Of a stretch of DNA of 5,313 bases, positions 501 through 5,252 are shown piece by piece (the stretch's first letter is position 1; each line of letters begins with the position of its first letter). The DNA is from Chthoniobacterales bacterium. GTDB lineage: Bacteria; Verrucomicrobiota; Verrucomicrobiae; Chthoniobacterales; UBA10450. The position numbers and the translations under genes were made by a program. The stretch lies in assembly GCA_003244125.1 (NCBI GenBank), contig QHBL01000215.1, positions 1-5,313 on the forward strand, in the 5' to 3' direction. Under the pieces are notes generated by a model. It ran no database searches and was not told the origin of the DNA. It saw nothing but the letters and a program-made list of their open reading frames with translations.

Positions 501-1904
501 ATGAAATTTACGCTTCTTTCCATGGTTTGCTCCGGTGTGGTGCTCAGTTCTTCGCCGCTTTTATGGGCCCAGGATCCTCTCGCGAGCACGGGACGGATCG
601 CCGTGAGCGAGGATGGCAATTATCACGACCGCGATGACATTTGCTCGGGCGCGTTGATCGTCGCGCAGTTCGCGCAAGCCGGGGCGGCAGCACGGCTTGT
701 TTACTACGGTTACGCTGATCACTACTGGCTGAGCGACCCGGCACGCGAAGAGCTGATGCGGCAGAGTGTGGTCAATACAGCCACGATGTGGGGCGGATTT
801 AATCTCGGTGTCTTCTACAACGTTACCCAGCAAACTTCAGCCGCGATCTCAGCCCTTACTGCAGAGATCAATCGATCGACCTCGAATGATCCCCTTACCA
901 TCGTGGCCGCCGGACCGATGCAGGTCATAGGCCAGGCTTTGGCGCAATCTGAGTCCAGCCGTCGAGCGTATGTGACGGTAATTTCGCATTCGACCTGGAA
1001 CGACACTCATGCCGCGGAGTATGGACCTAAAGAAGGGCTCTCCGGGCCAACCTACACATTCAACGAGCTTGGCCAGCTCGGAGCCAATGTTGTCCACATC
1101 CACGACCAGAACGCTGGGCTGGACAAGCCCTACGAGCAGTTTACCTGGCTACGCGACTCCGGCGATTCGCGGCTGGTTTGGCTATGGCTTCGCGCACAGG
1201 CGGCGGCGAAGAGCACATTCGATTGCTCCGACGCGGGGATGGTTTACTTCGCGCTGACCGGCGATGACAGCGCCACGCCCGCGAAGCTACAGGCACTACT
1301 TACCGCCTCATCTTCTACACCTACACCAACACCTACTCCTACACCTGTCCCCACCCCCTCGCCGACACCAATCACCAGTCCATCGCCAACCATCACCCCA
1401 TTGCCCACTGCTACTCCATCGCCGACGATTATTCCGACACCGACCGTTACGCCAGTTCCGACCGCAACCGTTACGCCTACTCCCAGTCCGAATCTCACTC
1501 CTACTCCGACACCGAAAATAACTCCCACTCCTCGCACTACTCCTACTCCGACAGCTACTCCTTCTCTTGCCGGGCTCAGCTTAGTTAATTTCGTCACCAA
1601 TGCTGATGTTGGCCCATTTATTAGCGGGATGACCATTGATCTGCAGGATGCGCTAAGTATCCGGGCCGATGCTGCGGCCCACGTGTCCAGCGTAGTATTC
1701 AAAGGGGAAGGTGCTGAAACGTTGCAGACGGAGAATGTTCCGCCCTTTGTTATCGGCGGCGATACAAACGGCGACTATTATCGGTGGCAGCCAGCCGTGG
1801 GCAGCCACGTTCTTTTTGTCACCCCCTACAGCGAGCAGGACGGCGGTGGCCAGGCAGGACCATCCATCATTGTGAGCTACACTGTTATTGACTCCAGAAA
1901 ATAA
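501..1904 (+). CDS. Exported nucleoside-hydrolase-like protein with Thr-Pro linker and C-terminal Ig-like domain
   Basis: A 467-residue three-part protein. Residues 1-23 look like a Sec signal peptide (Lys2, hydrophobic core, likely cleavage after Ala23 in LLWA-QDP), so it is probably periplasmic or secreted; there is no lipobox. Residues 30 to about 268 resemble the nucleoside hydrolase / Sde182-like fold: an Asp-rich motif DGNYHDRDD (38-46) after a beta strand, [15 protein letters not shown] (133-147), [11 protein letters not shown] (160-170), HDQN (201-204) and [13 protein letters not shown] (243-255). Residues 273-355 are a Thr-Pro linker. Residues 356-467 look like a beta-sandwich adhesion or Ig-like module, with the [17 protein letters not shown] stretch and the [11 protein letters not shown] pattern seen at the C-termini of many secreted Verrucomicrobiota and Bacteroidetes proteins. 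The likely role is a surface or extracellular hydrolase or sugar-binding protein. The substrate is unknown, and the Asp cluster differs from the classical nucleoside hydrolase DxDxxxDD, so catalysis is not assured. ATG 501 is chosen because it gives the signal peptide; no clear Shine-Dalgarno sequence precedes it. Confidence 0.8.
1317..1565 (+). repeat. Thr-Pro linker-coding low-complexity repeat
   Basis: About 250 bases of degenerate ACN-CCN codon repeats encode residues 273-355, mostly TP, TPSP, TPTA and TPV units with occasional I, L, K, R and N. Codons vary (act/aca/acc with cct/ccg/cca), so the tract is conserved more as protein than as DNA. The plus strand is strongly pyrimidine-biased. 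Such linkers separate catalytic and binding modules in secreted proteins and are usually flexible and extended. The minus-strand reading of this tract (Val-Gly repeats) is a shadow. Confidence 0.9.
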
Positions 1905-2007: not shown

Positions 2008-3108
2008 TTAGTACAGCTCGACTGGTGAGCGCGCGCCGTCCTCGGCACTGCGCTCAGCCGCGCGCTGCTTGCCCAGAATCGCGACGCGCAAATCCCAGAT
2101 CTCGTCGTCGATTTTCCGGAATCGTTTTTCGGAAAATGCGTCCGGCGGCATGAGCTTGGTTTTGAATCGCGCCACACCCTCGAGCGCGCGATCGATGTCG
2201 CGCCGCGGCAAACGATCGATCACCGCCAGCGCGTCTCCGATTTTCTCCACCCGATGACAAATCATCGCCAGGTCATTTCCAGCAGCGAAAGCGAGCCGCA
2301 GCATCTCGTCGAAAGGGTATTCGTTGAGAATCGCACCCATGTCGAGGTCGTCACTCATGATAAGCCCGTCGAAGCGCAGCTCGCCGCGAAGAAGATCGGT
2401 CACGACACGGCGGCTGAGCGAGGCCGGTTTTTTTCTGCGCTCGAAACAGGGATACCAGCCGTGGCAGATCATCATGCTATCGACCTGACCGGAAAACGCG
2501 CGAAACACCGCCAGCTCGTGCGCGTCGAGCTCGGCCCGCGTGCGCGCGATCTTCGGCAAATCGTGATGCGCGTCAAGCGTGGCGGCGGAGTAGCCGGGAA
2601 AATGTTTACCGCAGCTCGCAATGCCCGCGCCGCGGAGTGCATCGTTGAACGCGGCGGCGTTCCTCACCACCTCTGCGACATCGCGCCCGTAACAACGCCC
2701 GCGCAACGAATTGTCCGCCTCGTCATCAAACGAAATGTCGAGCACGGGACAAAGATCGAGATTGAACCCGAACAAACGCAGCAAGCGGCCAGTGATGTCT
2801 CCGTGTCTGCGGATGAGCGAGACATCCCCTTTATCGCGCAACTGTTGAGCATTCGGCGGCTCGTTGCCGATGAGCCGCAACCGCGAAACGCGTCCGCCTT
2901 CCTGATCGATGGTGATGATCGGCTCCGTCTTGCTCAGGTCGCGCAACGCGTCAGTCAGATCGCGCAATTGCGAGGCCGTTTTGATGTTGCGGCCGAAAAG
3001 GATGAAGCCGCCCGGTTGCACGCGCCGGAGGAGTTTCGCCTCGTCGCGCTCCAGCTCCGGGCCGCGCACGCCGACAAGGAGCAGTTGACCGGCTGAAGCG
3101 TGCTTCAT
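2008..3108 (-). CDS. nagZ: Beta-N-acetylhexosaminidase, GH3 family, NagZ-like
   Basis: The product (366 residues from ATG 3108) removes terminal beta-linked N-acetylglucosamine from peptidoglycan or muropeptide fragments and fits the usual single-domain NagZ length. GH3 landmarks appear in order: QPGGFILFGRN (31-41), DQEGGRVSRL (68-77, substrate loop), GFNLDLCPVLDI (114-125), KHFPGYS (168-174), TLDAHHDLP (177-185, containing the Asp-x-His catalytic dyad D179/H181) and SDDLDMGAI (252-260), whose first Asp (D253) should be the nucleophile. There is no signal peptide, so it is probably cytoplasmic. The common KHFPGHG is KHFPGYS here, and the usual H-[VI]-x-YP after DSMM reads HGWYP, suggesting a lineage subgroup. 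A GTG at 3117 would add MDV; ATG 3108 is preferred because GGA lies a few bases upstream in GTGGACGTT. The gene is divergent from namZ, which supports a role in cell-wall sugar recovery. General GH3 glycosidase activity on other beta-glycosides is the alternative. Confidence 0.9.
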   Translation of the reverse strand: MKHASAGQLLLVGVRGPELERDEAKLLRRVQPGGFILFGRNIKTASQLRDLTDALRDLSKTEPIITIDQEGGRVSRLRLIGNEPPNAQQLRDKGDVSLIRRHGDITGRLLRLFGFNLDLCPVLDISFDDEADNSLRGRCYGRDVAEVVRNAAAFNDALRGAGIASCGKHFPGYSAATLDAHHDLPKIARTRAELDAHELAVFRAFSGQVDSMMICHGWYPCFERRKKPASLSRRVVTDLLRGELRFDGLIMSDDLDMGAILNEYPFDEMLRLAFAAGNDLAMICHRVEKIGDALAVIDRLPRRDIDRALEGVARFKTKLMPPDAFSEKRFRKIDDEIWDLRVAILGKQRAAERSAEDGARSPVELY

Positions 3109-3127
3109 AACGTCCACGCTAAATTTG
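3109..3127. promoter_or_regulatory. Very short divergent nagZ/namZ start region
   Basis: Only 19 bases separate the nagZ ATG (3108, minus) from the namZ ATG (3128, plus), or 10 if nagZ starts at GTG 3117. No full -35/-10 pair fits, so each promoter must lie inside the other gene's coding sequence, or the transcripts overlap at their 5' ends. The AT-rich core AAATTT (3121-3126) stands out from the GC-rich surroundings. No operator palindrome beyond AAATTT is visible. Confidence 0.4.
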
Positions 3128-4324
3128 ATGGCTCGCGCGCGAAATCAATTTCTCCGCCTGCTCTTTCTGGTCGTGATGGCGGCGAATGCGCGCGGCGCGG
3201 TCGAGCTCGGCATCGATGTGCTGGCAAGCGATGATTACGGTTTGCTCAAAGGCAAACGCGTCGGGCTCATCACCAACCAGACCGGCGTTGATTCACATGG
3301 CGTTCGCACGCGCGTGTTGCTGAAAAAGCACTCCGATCTCGTTGCACTCTACACGCCTGAACACGGACTCGATGGCACCGAGAAAGCGGGGCGTTACGTT
3401 CCGAATCGCCGCGACCGCGTCACCGGTCTCATCGCGCATTCGCTTTACGGCCCCACCCGCAAACCGACACCGGCCATGCTGCGCGGCATCGACGTGCTCG
3501 TCTTCGATCTCCAGGACATCGGCTGCCGCAGTTACACCTACATCAGCACCATGGGCAAATGCATGGAAGCCGCCGCGGAAAACCACATCGAGTTCATCGT
3601 GCTGGATCGCCCGAATCCGCTCGGCGGTGTGCGCGTGGAAGGTCCGCTGGTCGAGCCACGCTGGATTTCTTTCGTCAGCCAATTTCCGGTGCCCTATGTG
3701 CATGGCATGACCTGCGGTGAGCTTGCGCGCATGATCAATGACAAAGGCTGGATCAATGGCCATTGCGAACTGCGGGTCGTTAGCATGCGCGGTTGGGCGC
3801 GACGTTATACCTGGGACGATACCGGACTGCGCTGGGTCGCCACCTCGCCGAATATCCCGCGCTGGAATTCCCCTTTTTACTACGTCGCGACAGGGCTGAT
3901 CGGCGAACTGAACGGCCCGGAAACTGGCGTGGGCGGAGCGCGGCCATTCGAGATTCTCTCCGCGCGCGGTGTGGACGCGGGAACGTTCACAAGCTATATG
4001 AATTCGCGCAATCTCGATCGTGTTTCCTTCACTCAATATCGCAGCGGAGATCGCGGTGGTAGCTATCTTCACATTGAGCCGGACAGCCCGGCGAACCTGA
4101 CCGCGATCAACGTTGACGCGCTGGCGGAGATGAATCGCGAGTTACGCACGAATTTGATCACTCGCAGCAGTGCGGGCAAACGCGAAATGTTTTTCAAATG
4201 CTACGGCAGCGCATCGATCGCATCGCAGTTAACTCGCGGCGAAGGACCTTCCGCCATCGTCGGCAGTTGGACGGATGACGTCGGCCGATTCAAAGCTGAG
4301 CGCAGTCCTTACCTGCTTTATTGA
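3128..4324 (+). CDS. namZ: DUF1343 / NamZ-type exo-beta-N-acetylmuramidase (GH171), exported
   Basis: A 398-residue protein with an N-terminal signal peptide (basic MARARNQFLR, hydrophobic LLFLVVMAA, likely cleavage after Ala21 in ANA-RG), so periplasmic or exported. Family hallmarks in order: GIDVL (28-32), GKRVGLITNQTG (42-53), LYTPEHGLDG (74-83, with the conserved Glu78-His), VFDLQDIGCRSYTY (125-138), RPNPLGG (161-167), VHGMTCGELA (191-200), SPNIP (230-234) and the terminal RSPYLLY. Bacillus subtilis YbbC/NamZ, the founding member, removes terminal N-acetylmuramic acid from peptidoglycan fragments; the same activity is inferred here. The region after the SPN motif reads GELNGPETGVGGARPFE, where NamZ itself has an EGTNxSxGRGT-like loop, so this belongs to a divergent subgroup whose specificity may differ. 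ATG 3128 is chosen over the adjoining TTG 3125; there is no Shine-Dalgarno sequence. It is divergent from nagZ and overlaps nadD by 4 nt. The family call is strong; the exact substrate is less certain. Confidence 0.88.
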   Translation: MARARNQFLRLLFLVVMAANARGAVELGIDVLASDDYGLLKGKRVGLITNQTGVDSHGVRTRVLLKKHSDLVALYTPEHGLDGTEKAGRYVPNRRDRVTGLIAHSLYGPTRKPTPAMLRGIDVLVFDLQDIGCRSYTYISTMGKCMEAAAENHIEFIVLDRPNPLGGVRVEGPLVEPRWISFVSQFPVPYVHGMTCGELARMINDKGWINGHCELRVVSMRGWARRYTWDDTGLRWVATSPNIPRWNSPFYYVATGLIGELNGPETGVGGARPFEILSARGVDAGTFTSYMNSRNLDRVSFTQYRSGDRGGSYLHIEPDSPANLTAINVDALAEMNRELRTNLITRSSAGKREMFFKCYGSASIASQLTRGEGPSAIVGSWTDDVGRFKAERSPYLLY

Positions 4325-4893
4325 CCTTGGAAAAAATCGGCGTTTACGGCGGCACCTTTGATCCGGTGCATCACGCGCATTTGATCCTGGCGCGCGAAGC
4401 GGCCGAGCAACACGGGCTGGACAAAGTCATCTTCATCCCGGCCGCGACCTCGCCCTTTAAAGCGCCGCCATTCGCGAACGCGAGTGCGCGACTCCAAATG
4501 CTGCGTGCGGGAATTGGCGACGAGCCCCGGTTCGAGATCGATGAATGCGAATTGCAACGGCCGCCACCTTCCTACACCGTGGACACGATTAAGGAGTTCC
4601 GACAGAAATATTCCGGCGCGCAATTGTTCCTGCTCATAGGCGATGACAACCTGGCTGGGCTGCCGCAATGGCGCGACTTCAGCCAATTGCGCGAGATGGT
4701 TATCTTCATCGTTTTGCCACGCGCAAAAACCGGAGTGCGGCACGATTATCTTGCGGTCAAGCGCCGGGTCGATATCTCCGCGACCGAGATTCGGGACCGG
4801 GTTAGCTCAGGACGCTCGATCTACTACTTCGTGCCGGGCACCGTGGAAGAGATCATCACAGCGCAGCACCTTTATAAGGAGGTAACAAGATAG
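4321..4893 (+). CDS. nadD: Nicotinate-nucleotide adenylyltransferase
   Basis: Transfers AMP from ATP to nicotinate mononucleotide to make deamido-NAD in NAD biosynthesis; cytoplasmic. Length is 190 residues, at the short end of the family. Seen in sequence: GVYGGTFDPVHHAHL (7-21), the nucleotidyltransferase signature with the (H/T)xGH motif as HHAH; FIPAATSPFK (38-47); PPSYTVDT (82-89); LLIGDDNLAGLPQWRDF (104-120), the substrate-pocket region; ISATEIRDRV (152-161), the SxTxxR ATP-binding motif; and the C-terminal VPGTVEEIITAQHLY. The start is TTG 4321, sharing TTGA with the namZ stop; a second TTG at 4327 is two codons later and equally plausible, since the domain begins at EKIGVYGG. Neither has a Shine-Dalgarno sequence, so translation is probably coupled to namZ. 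The stop TAG (4891-4893) overlaps the inferred rsfS start. The nadD-rsfS order is common in bacteria, which supports both calls. Confidence 0.95.
   Translation: MTLEKIGVYGGTFDPVHHAHLILAREAAEQHGLDKVIFIPAATSPFKAPPFANASARLQMLRAGIGDEPRFEIDECELQRPPPSYTVDTIKEFRQKYSGAQLFLLIGDDNLAGLPQWRDFSQLREMVIFIVLPRAKTGVRHDYLAVKRRVDISATEIRDRVSSGRSIYYFVPGTVEEIITAQHLYKEVTR
4876..4883 (+). promoter_or_regulatory. Perfect Shine-Dalgarno site that sets the rsfS start
   Basis: AAGGAGGT is fully complementary to the anti-Shine-Dalgarno end of bacterial 16S rRNA and lies inside the last codons of nadD. It is separated from the ATA at 4890 by six bases (AACAAG), an optimal distance. The next ordinary start codon in the frame, GTG 4959, is 75 bases away and cannot use this site. 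No other gene start in the window has a ribosome binding site of this strength. Confidence 0.85.
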
Positions 4894-5252
4894 ATTCAGA
4901 AGCATTAGCGAAACTTTGCGCCGAGTTCGCGGCCAACAAGAAAGCGGAGGAGATCGTCGTGCTCGACCTGCGCGCGATCTCGAGCTTCACCGATTTCTTC
5001 GTCATTTGCTCGGGAACCTCAGAGCCGCATTTGAAAGCGATCGCGGGTGAGATCGAGACGAAGTTAAAGCAGGACTATAACGTGCGCGCCGGCGCCATCG
5101 ACGGCTTTCCAGCGAGTCAATGGATGGTGCTCGATTACCTCCAAGTCATCGTCCACATTTTCCATCACACTAAGCGCGATTTCTACGCGCTCGAGGATCT
5201 CTGGGGCGACGCCCCGCGTCTGGAGTGGGAAACCGCGCAACCCACGAGTTAA
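4890..5252 (+). CDS. rsfS: Ribosomal silencing factor RsfS, with inferred ATA start
   Basis: A member of the RsfS/Iojap family (120 residues), which binds ribosomal protein uL14 on the large subunit and blocks subunit joining when nutrients are scarce. Core motifs: VVLDLRAISSFTDFFVICSG (23-42), GTSEPHLKAIAGEIE (42-56), DGFPASQWMVLDYLQVIVHI (71-90) and KRDFYALEDLWGDAPRLEW (95-113). The N-terminal helix typical of the family (DSEALAKLC, then AEFAANKKAEEI, residues 2-22) is encoded in frame upstream of the GTG at 4959. The frame is closed by TAA at 4875-4877, and between that stop and 4959 there is no ATG, GTG or TTG. The codon at the expected position is ATA 4890-4892, next to a perfect Shine-Dalgarno sequence. 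Starting at GTG 4959 would delete 23 conserved-looking residues. The start overlaps the nadD stop as ATAG. The family call is near certain; the ATA start is inferred, and a base-call error at 4892 is the main alternative. Confidence 0.92.
   Translation: MDSEALAKLCAEFAANKKAEEIVVLDLRAISSFTDFFVICSGTSEPHLKAIAGEIETKLKQDYNVRAGAIDGFPASQWMVLDYLQVIVHIFHHTKRDFYALEDLWGDAPRLEWETAQPTS

Follow-up and report, generated by a model that had tools for sequence, protein, structure and literature searches.

Background

Regulation of infC by IF3 is experimentally established, and pcnB of Escherichia coli, a gene unrelated to the one considered here (rsfS, for the ribosome silencing factor), is said to be limited in its output, at the level of translation, by an AUU start. 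The start codon of infC, which encodes IF3, is AUU, AUC or AUA (the three being designated AUH in the following), and its autoregulation is experimental according to the work cited in PMC13009471, while that of rsfS is putative and deduced in the present study. The two genes share a conserved AUH start, a strong Shine-Dalgarno (SD) sequence and a product acting on subunit association, and they do so in the same genomes; they differ in that IF3 reads its own start codon, while RsfS, on the 50S side, would act only indirectly.

The sigR gene of Streptomyces, with its IF3-repressed GTC start, resembles rsfS by a conserved non-canonical start, a strong SD, a misannotated start and a critical dose, and is described as a case where a non-canonical start is essential for regulation. 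It differs by its codon (GTC and not AUH), by the demonstration through mutation, by being an unrelated gene and by a conservation described within Streptomyces (PMC5472188). In Staphylococcus aureus, ccpN (AUA) and cvfC1 (AUU) share with rsfS conserved AUA/AUU starts and an extended SD, but they encode a metabolic regulator and a small protein, not ribosome factors, and were demonstrated using Ribo-RET and reporters. AUA and AUU starts in this species gave about a tenth of the AUG output in poor medium, a fraction that reached 30% for one gene when the medium was rich (PMC13009471).

The rsfS gene of E. coli is the same gene with a minor start codon, UUG (PMC10917681); that codon is however a standard start, and cobC is located between nadD and rsfS. 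In other species RsfS is reported to bind L14 and to impair subunit joining (PMC3400551), from which uL14 binding and a block on subunit joining are predicted for the RsfS protein encoded in the window (the whole stretch of DNA that was analysed, 5,313 nucleotides). No report of an AUH start for rsfS was found among the matches listed from the open-access literature searched.

Loci, samples and criteria

Relatives were collected by a contig scan with the 120-residue protein, from which the best 80 of 257 loci were read; one incomplete locus (L075) was dropped, leaving 79. Because the peptide patterns of the scan did not include the start codon, the sample was not selected for start type. The titles of the 80 loci are all of Verrucomicrobiota, mostly MAGs called Verrucomicrobia, Spartobacteria or Chthoniobacterales.

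Wider sampling covered three ranks around G003, the genome carrying locus L009 (its phylum, class and order), as well as the class of G213, which represents a second lineage. The rsfS gene was present in 371/387 genomes for the phylum, 109/113 for the class and 36/38 for the order of G003, and in 56/57 for the class of G213. Loci were read for 90 of the phylum, 70 of the class (30 + 40), 33 of the 36 of the order and 30 of the 56 of the class of G213. Removal of duplicates and of loci with insufficient sequence gave a set of 269 distinct loci. Phyla outside the group were represented by E. coli alone (rsfS TTG). The SD of an rsfS gene was considered as strong at or under -5.5 kcal/mol, taking the best value of any candidate start.

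The rsfS locus of the window

Gene order in the window is nadD then rsfS, both on the plus strand (Table 1). The last codon of rsfS is located at 5247-5249 and its stop at 5250-5252. The protein read from 4890 matches the TIGR00090 profile with 106.3 bits (cut-off 56.9) and the PF02410 profile with 106.8 bits (cut-off 21.6). The original prediction had placed the start at ATA 4890, six bases after AAGGAGGT, in a frame devoid of ATG, GTG or TTG before an internal GTG, and these coordinates were found to be right: no such codon is present in the rsfS frame between 4878 and GTG 4959, and this GTG, the first canonical codon of the frame, lies 23 codons in.

Table 1 Features of the nadD-rsfS region (positions in the window)
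Feature	Positions	Strand	Remarks
rsfS (ribosome silencing factor)	4890..5252	+	120 codons from ATA plus stop; TIGR00090 and PF02410 matches
Inferred rsfS start codon ATA	4890..4892	+	AUH at the aligned codon of relatives, numbering of RsfS chains, frame switch
Shine-Dalgarno sequence AAGGAGGT	4876..4883	+	Six-base spacer to ATA
TAA, in-frame stop closing the rsfS frame upstream	4875..4877	+	Four codons between TAA and ATA
nadD	4327..4893	+	Start TTG 4327 (or TTG 4321); stop TAG 4891-4893 overlaps ATA
TTA codon 6 of rsfS followed by G, giving UAG 4906-4908 in the +1 (nadD) frame	4905..4908	+	Co-conserved with AUH
Internal GTG, start chosen by gene callers on this contig	4959..4961	+	P0007, 97 aa

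Elsewhere in the window, genes for a GH3-family hydrolase (2008-3117, minus strand) and a NamZ-type exo-beta-N-acetylmuramidase (3125-4324, plus strand) are adjacent in back-to-back orientation, an arrangement suggestive of cell-wall recycling. Positions 501-1904 (plus strand) encode a 467-residue protein with a long Thr/Pro-rich stretch, for which no match was found in Pfam or NCBIfam.

Start codon among relatives and in wider samples

At the aligned start codon the 79 relatives carry ATA (53 loci), ATC (12), ATT (12), GTG (L063) and ATG (L070). The claim that rsfS starts at ATA is strongly supported by this alignment, in which 77/79 relatives have AUH; the class ATA/ATC/ATT is conserved, and the contig is not a lone exception among carriers of ATG. 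A sequencing error or a mutation private to this contig has a practically negligible probability, the same codon class being found in independent assemblies, and as a general account it is refuted by the 77/79 relatives. In 64 of 80 loci (window included) no in-frame canonical codon occurs from 43 codons upstream to 4 codons downstream, and in 13 others a canonical codon is present only at 25 codons or more upstream of the aligned start. The three loci with a canonical codon nearby are L063, L070 and L003, the latter having a TTG 11 codons upstream of its ATA.

The 269 distinct loci were classified as 111 AUH, 143 canonical, 11 with no start near and 4 ambiguous, fractions which are not unbiased since the loci read are mostly the best-scoring ones, and in which ambiguous starts were assigned by our own SD-energy rule. 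The AUH class (ATA 56, ATC 33, ATT 22) includes doubtful loci without a good SD (L131, L239/L378). The 33 loci of the order sample comprise 19 AUH, 12 canonical and 2 unclear starts. The class of G213 often shows AUC and AUU starts; the nearest named proteins to the RsfS of G213 itself, with about 60% identity, carry the label Verrucomicrobia or Verrucomicrobiota.

An RsfS tree built from 251 loci requires a minimum of 17 changes of start type, versus at least 68 in 200 shuffles; 18 changes were obtained with the set of 269 loci. Start type is therefore clustered by descent, yet it was gained or lost repeatedly. In six loci (L098, L119, L132, L144, L155 and L177) the rsfS ATG comes just after a TATAAT-like box, without SD, in a leaderless-like arrangement.

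Evidence bearing on the position of the start

Comparison of sequences and of solved structures indicates that translation of rsfS almost certainly starts at the AUH codon. The original prediction that the protein read from ATA has the full RsfS N-terminal helix was borne out by the numbering of solved chains: it matches 2o5a, 2id1, 6sj5, 6sj6, 9q40 and 30qz residue for residue, without offset (six of the 13 matched chains), while the remaining seven begin later or carry offsets. In 45 canonical loci, ATG, GTG or TTG stands in exactly the AUH column. SD-type tetramers (GGAG/GAGG/AGGA) are most frequent at -12 relative to the codon, where 72 of 93 AUH loci have one, and the next canonical codon is at least 12 codons downstream in 92% of the 111 AUH loci.

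Coding passes from the nadD frame to the rsfS frame at the AUH codon. In the 53 ATA loci, variability follows nadD wobble upstream of the codon (mean entropy by phase 1.09, 0.64 and 0.53) and rsfS wobble downstream of it (0.44, 0.25 and 1.16); these loci were picked for ATA, and the invariance of the codon itself is there by construction. Amino-acid identity in the rsfS frame, calculated on 77 close AUH loci, is 0.30 upstream, 0.70 for residues 2-22 and 0.74 beyond.

A start located elsewhere (the internal GTG, an upstream codon, or a frameshift fusion from nadD) is extremely unlikely. It would be in keeping with an rsfS frame that stays open for many codons upstream in many loci, and with databases that often annotate extensions; but the upstream identity of 0.30 corresponds to no conservation, purifying conservation begins at residue 2, and in-frame stops are found close upstream in five AUH loci, which leave just one or two open codons. 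A start at GTG would in addition delete the N-terminal helix seen in solved RsfS.

The overlap with nadD offers another account, in which AUH is a by-product, the sequence being ATAA, ATAG or ATTAA because a nadD stop is needed there. The third base does track the nadD stop, ATA occurring with a stop at +1 in 48 loci and ATT with a stop at +2 in 8. However, the nadD stop is at +16, +8, -2, -4, -5 or -6 in 11 of 69 loci where the codon is still ATC or ATT; ATGA or GTGA, found in L070 and L063, would serve nadD equally well; the nadD gene of the second lineage frequently terminates 14-18 bases upstream, in one of several frames; and L162 and L100 have no long frame ending nearby. Since AUH persists where the nadD stop lies elsewhere, the overlap was rejected as a full account, and we consider it very unlikely as the explanation. 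The nadD frame of L042 terminates 225 bases short of rsfS, which may reflect a frameshift or an assembly fault.

Shine-Dalgarno context and codon 6

A strong SD was found in 99 of the 111 AUH loci versus 46 of the 143 canonical rsfS loci. A rank test of SD strength against start type, using same-column codons, gave p ~1e-17 with kinship not removed, and a tree-based independent-pairs test of start type against SD gave a single supported pair, too few to free the association from kinship. In control genes, SDs at or under -5 were found in 36% of 28 frr, 17% of 29 HPF and 8% of 73 nadD genes. Strong SDs being uncommon in these controls, the strong SD goes with the weak codon.

These SD counts can be read as compensation: the AUH start would be real but non-regulatory, a strong SD restoring about normal output, with drift between AUH with SD and AUG without SD. 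Such compensation is described for GUG and UUG starts (PMC5622118), and the 17-18 or more changes of start type on the tree point the same way. Against this, AUH is retained in 77/79 close loci although one base away from ATG, and neutral switching hardly ever leads to starts of this type, with one AUG to AUU change among 61,358 ancestral AUG starts (PMC5622118). In reporters of other genes, moreover, AUA and AUU remained well under AUG despite extended SDs (PMC13009471). On balance a non-regulatory AUH start is unlikely.

A special sensitivity of canonical rsfS genes to IF3, through an SD-less overlap with nadD (36/143 loci), was also considered, IF3 being described as an inhibitor of SD-less re-initiation (PMC2268962); it was weakened by the observation that most frr, HPF and nadD starts are also without a strong SD.

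A second element co-conserved with AUH is located at codon 6. Where this codon encodes Leu, it is CTA or TTA in 86 of 98 AUH loci versus 10 of 85 canonical loci; these two codons make up about 11% of the Leu codons further on in the same rsfS genes. A UAG in the +1 frame at codon 6 is thereby found in 77% of the 111 AUH loci versus 7% of the 143 canonical loci. Among close loci it is present in 61/61 with nadD in the +1 frame and in 3/12 with nadD in the +2 frame, and it therefore looks there like the main or back-up stop of nadD. In the other AUH loci it is found in 18/34, also with nadD in other frames, and the nadD-stop account does not cover those loci.

Start codons of other genes in the same genomes

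The nadD start is canonical near the NadD motif in 69/69 of the same loci, 11 of the 80 having been dropped for a missing motif or missing upstream sequence. For frr and HPF, 30/30 loci read of each gene in the order sample have a canonical start, by a lenient test that accepted any canonical codon located between 25 codons upstream and 4 codons downstream of the profile start. The IF3 gene is present in 38/38 genomes of that sample, and of the 32 placed infC loci 24 show no canonical codon within 20 codons (5 of 37 were not placed). Two genomes were compared over 368 kb and 391 kb respectively, which gave 65 ortholog pairs: a canonical codon was found near the aligned start in both genomes for 53 pairs, in one genome for 5 and in neither for 7. 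The last seven comprise three pairs with a clear start further in, two whose alignment begins inside the protein and leaves the start undefined, infC and rsfS. Among the 65 pairs, infC and rsfS are thus the only two for which a canonical start is clearly lacking in each genome. AUH starts as a clade-wide habit, or altered decoding, were rejected on this basis, nadD, frr and HPF being canonical and infC and rsfS the sole clear exceptions among the pairs.

Two further observations concern the start codons of these genes. For infC (L081-L087 and L276-L305) the start is mostly AUU or AUC, with a few perhaps CUG. The placed nadD starts are TTG in 41/73, ATG in 28 and GTG in 4 (the TTG region of the window being 4321-4329); nadD starts being mostly TTG, the operon uses weak starts twice.

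Possible role of the AUH start

The best explanation of these data, and in our judgement a fairly probable one, is that the AUH start attenuates the dose of RsfS and is discriminated by IF3, as in infC. The dosage or feedback control suggested in the original prediction is thus plausible, with infC and sigR as near precedents. A strong, well-spaced SD would hold the 30S subunit on a codon poorly paired by the initiator tRNA, and IF3 would reject the AUH complexes unless the 50S subunit joins fast. Elevated IF3 is described as inhibiting initiation at non-canonical codons (PMC2268962). Attenuation of rsfS by AUH is likely: RsfS output from these starts would be low, and would be expected to vary with the balance of IF3 against subunit joining. 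RsfS would be a scarce protein, tied to IF3 and to how fast the 50S subunit joins, a step that RsfS itself slows.

True feedback on rsfS, exerted by IF3 or by RsfS, is conceivable but rather doubtful. As RsfS blocks subunit joining, its production from a weak start could limit itself, next to that of IF3, whose gene infC has the same kind of start in these genomes. In E. coli devoid of RimM, IF3 and RsfS are reported to rise together (PMC13246957). Reporters of rsfS in E. coli are most active during exponential growth (PMC10917681), which counts against a simple induction story. A more elaborate and somewhat unlikely scheme is that IF3 jointly sets infC and rsfS through their IF3-rejected starts, over much of this phylum, giving brakes on the 30S and 50S sides in proportion to free subunits; the UAG at codon 6 would be a second working part, for instance by causing an early pause or by terminating mis-set ribosomes.

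Points against attenuation are the canonical starts of L063, L070, 12/33 loci of the order sample and 143/269 loci overall; as canonical starts also occur, the weak start is not indispensable. The strong SD may also compensate for the weak codon, in which case net output would not be low.

Significance and annotation of rsfS

Conserved starts outside ATG, GTG and TTG are few, and some (infC, sigR) proved to be control points. The gene for the ribosome silencing factor now belongs to this small set in more than one lineage, and its AUH start is found in genomes where infC, encoding the policer of such starts, uses one too. The AUA, AUC or AUU start probably keeps the dose of RsfS low, and the setting of this dose becomes testable by a one-base change.

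Within one large group of soil and water bacteria, rsfS has an AUH start in many members, and gene-finding programs usually miss it. The original prediction that they would truncate the protein held for this contig, whose deposited protein (P0007) is a 97-residue truncation, whereas the database proteins compared are more often extended than truncated. An anchor was obtained for 116 of the 120 best database matches (which may include genes other than AUH ones): 99 are extended into the nadD overlap, 10 are exact and 7 are truncated, so that the N-terminus is off in 106/116. One NCBI protein, P0087, already begins at the ATA of L033.
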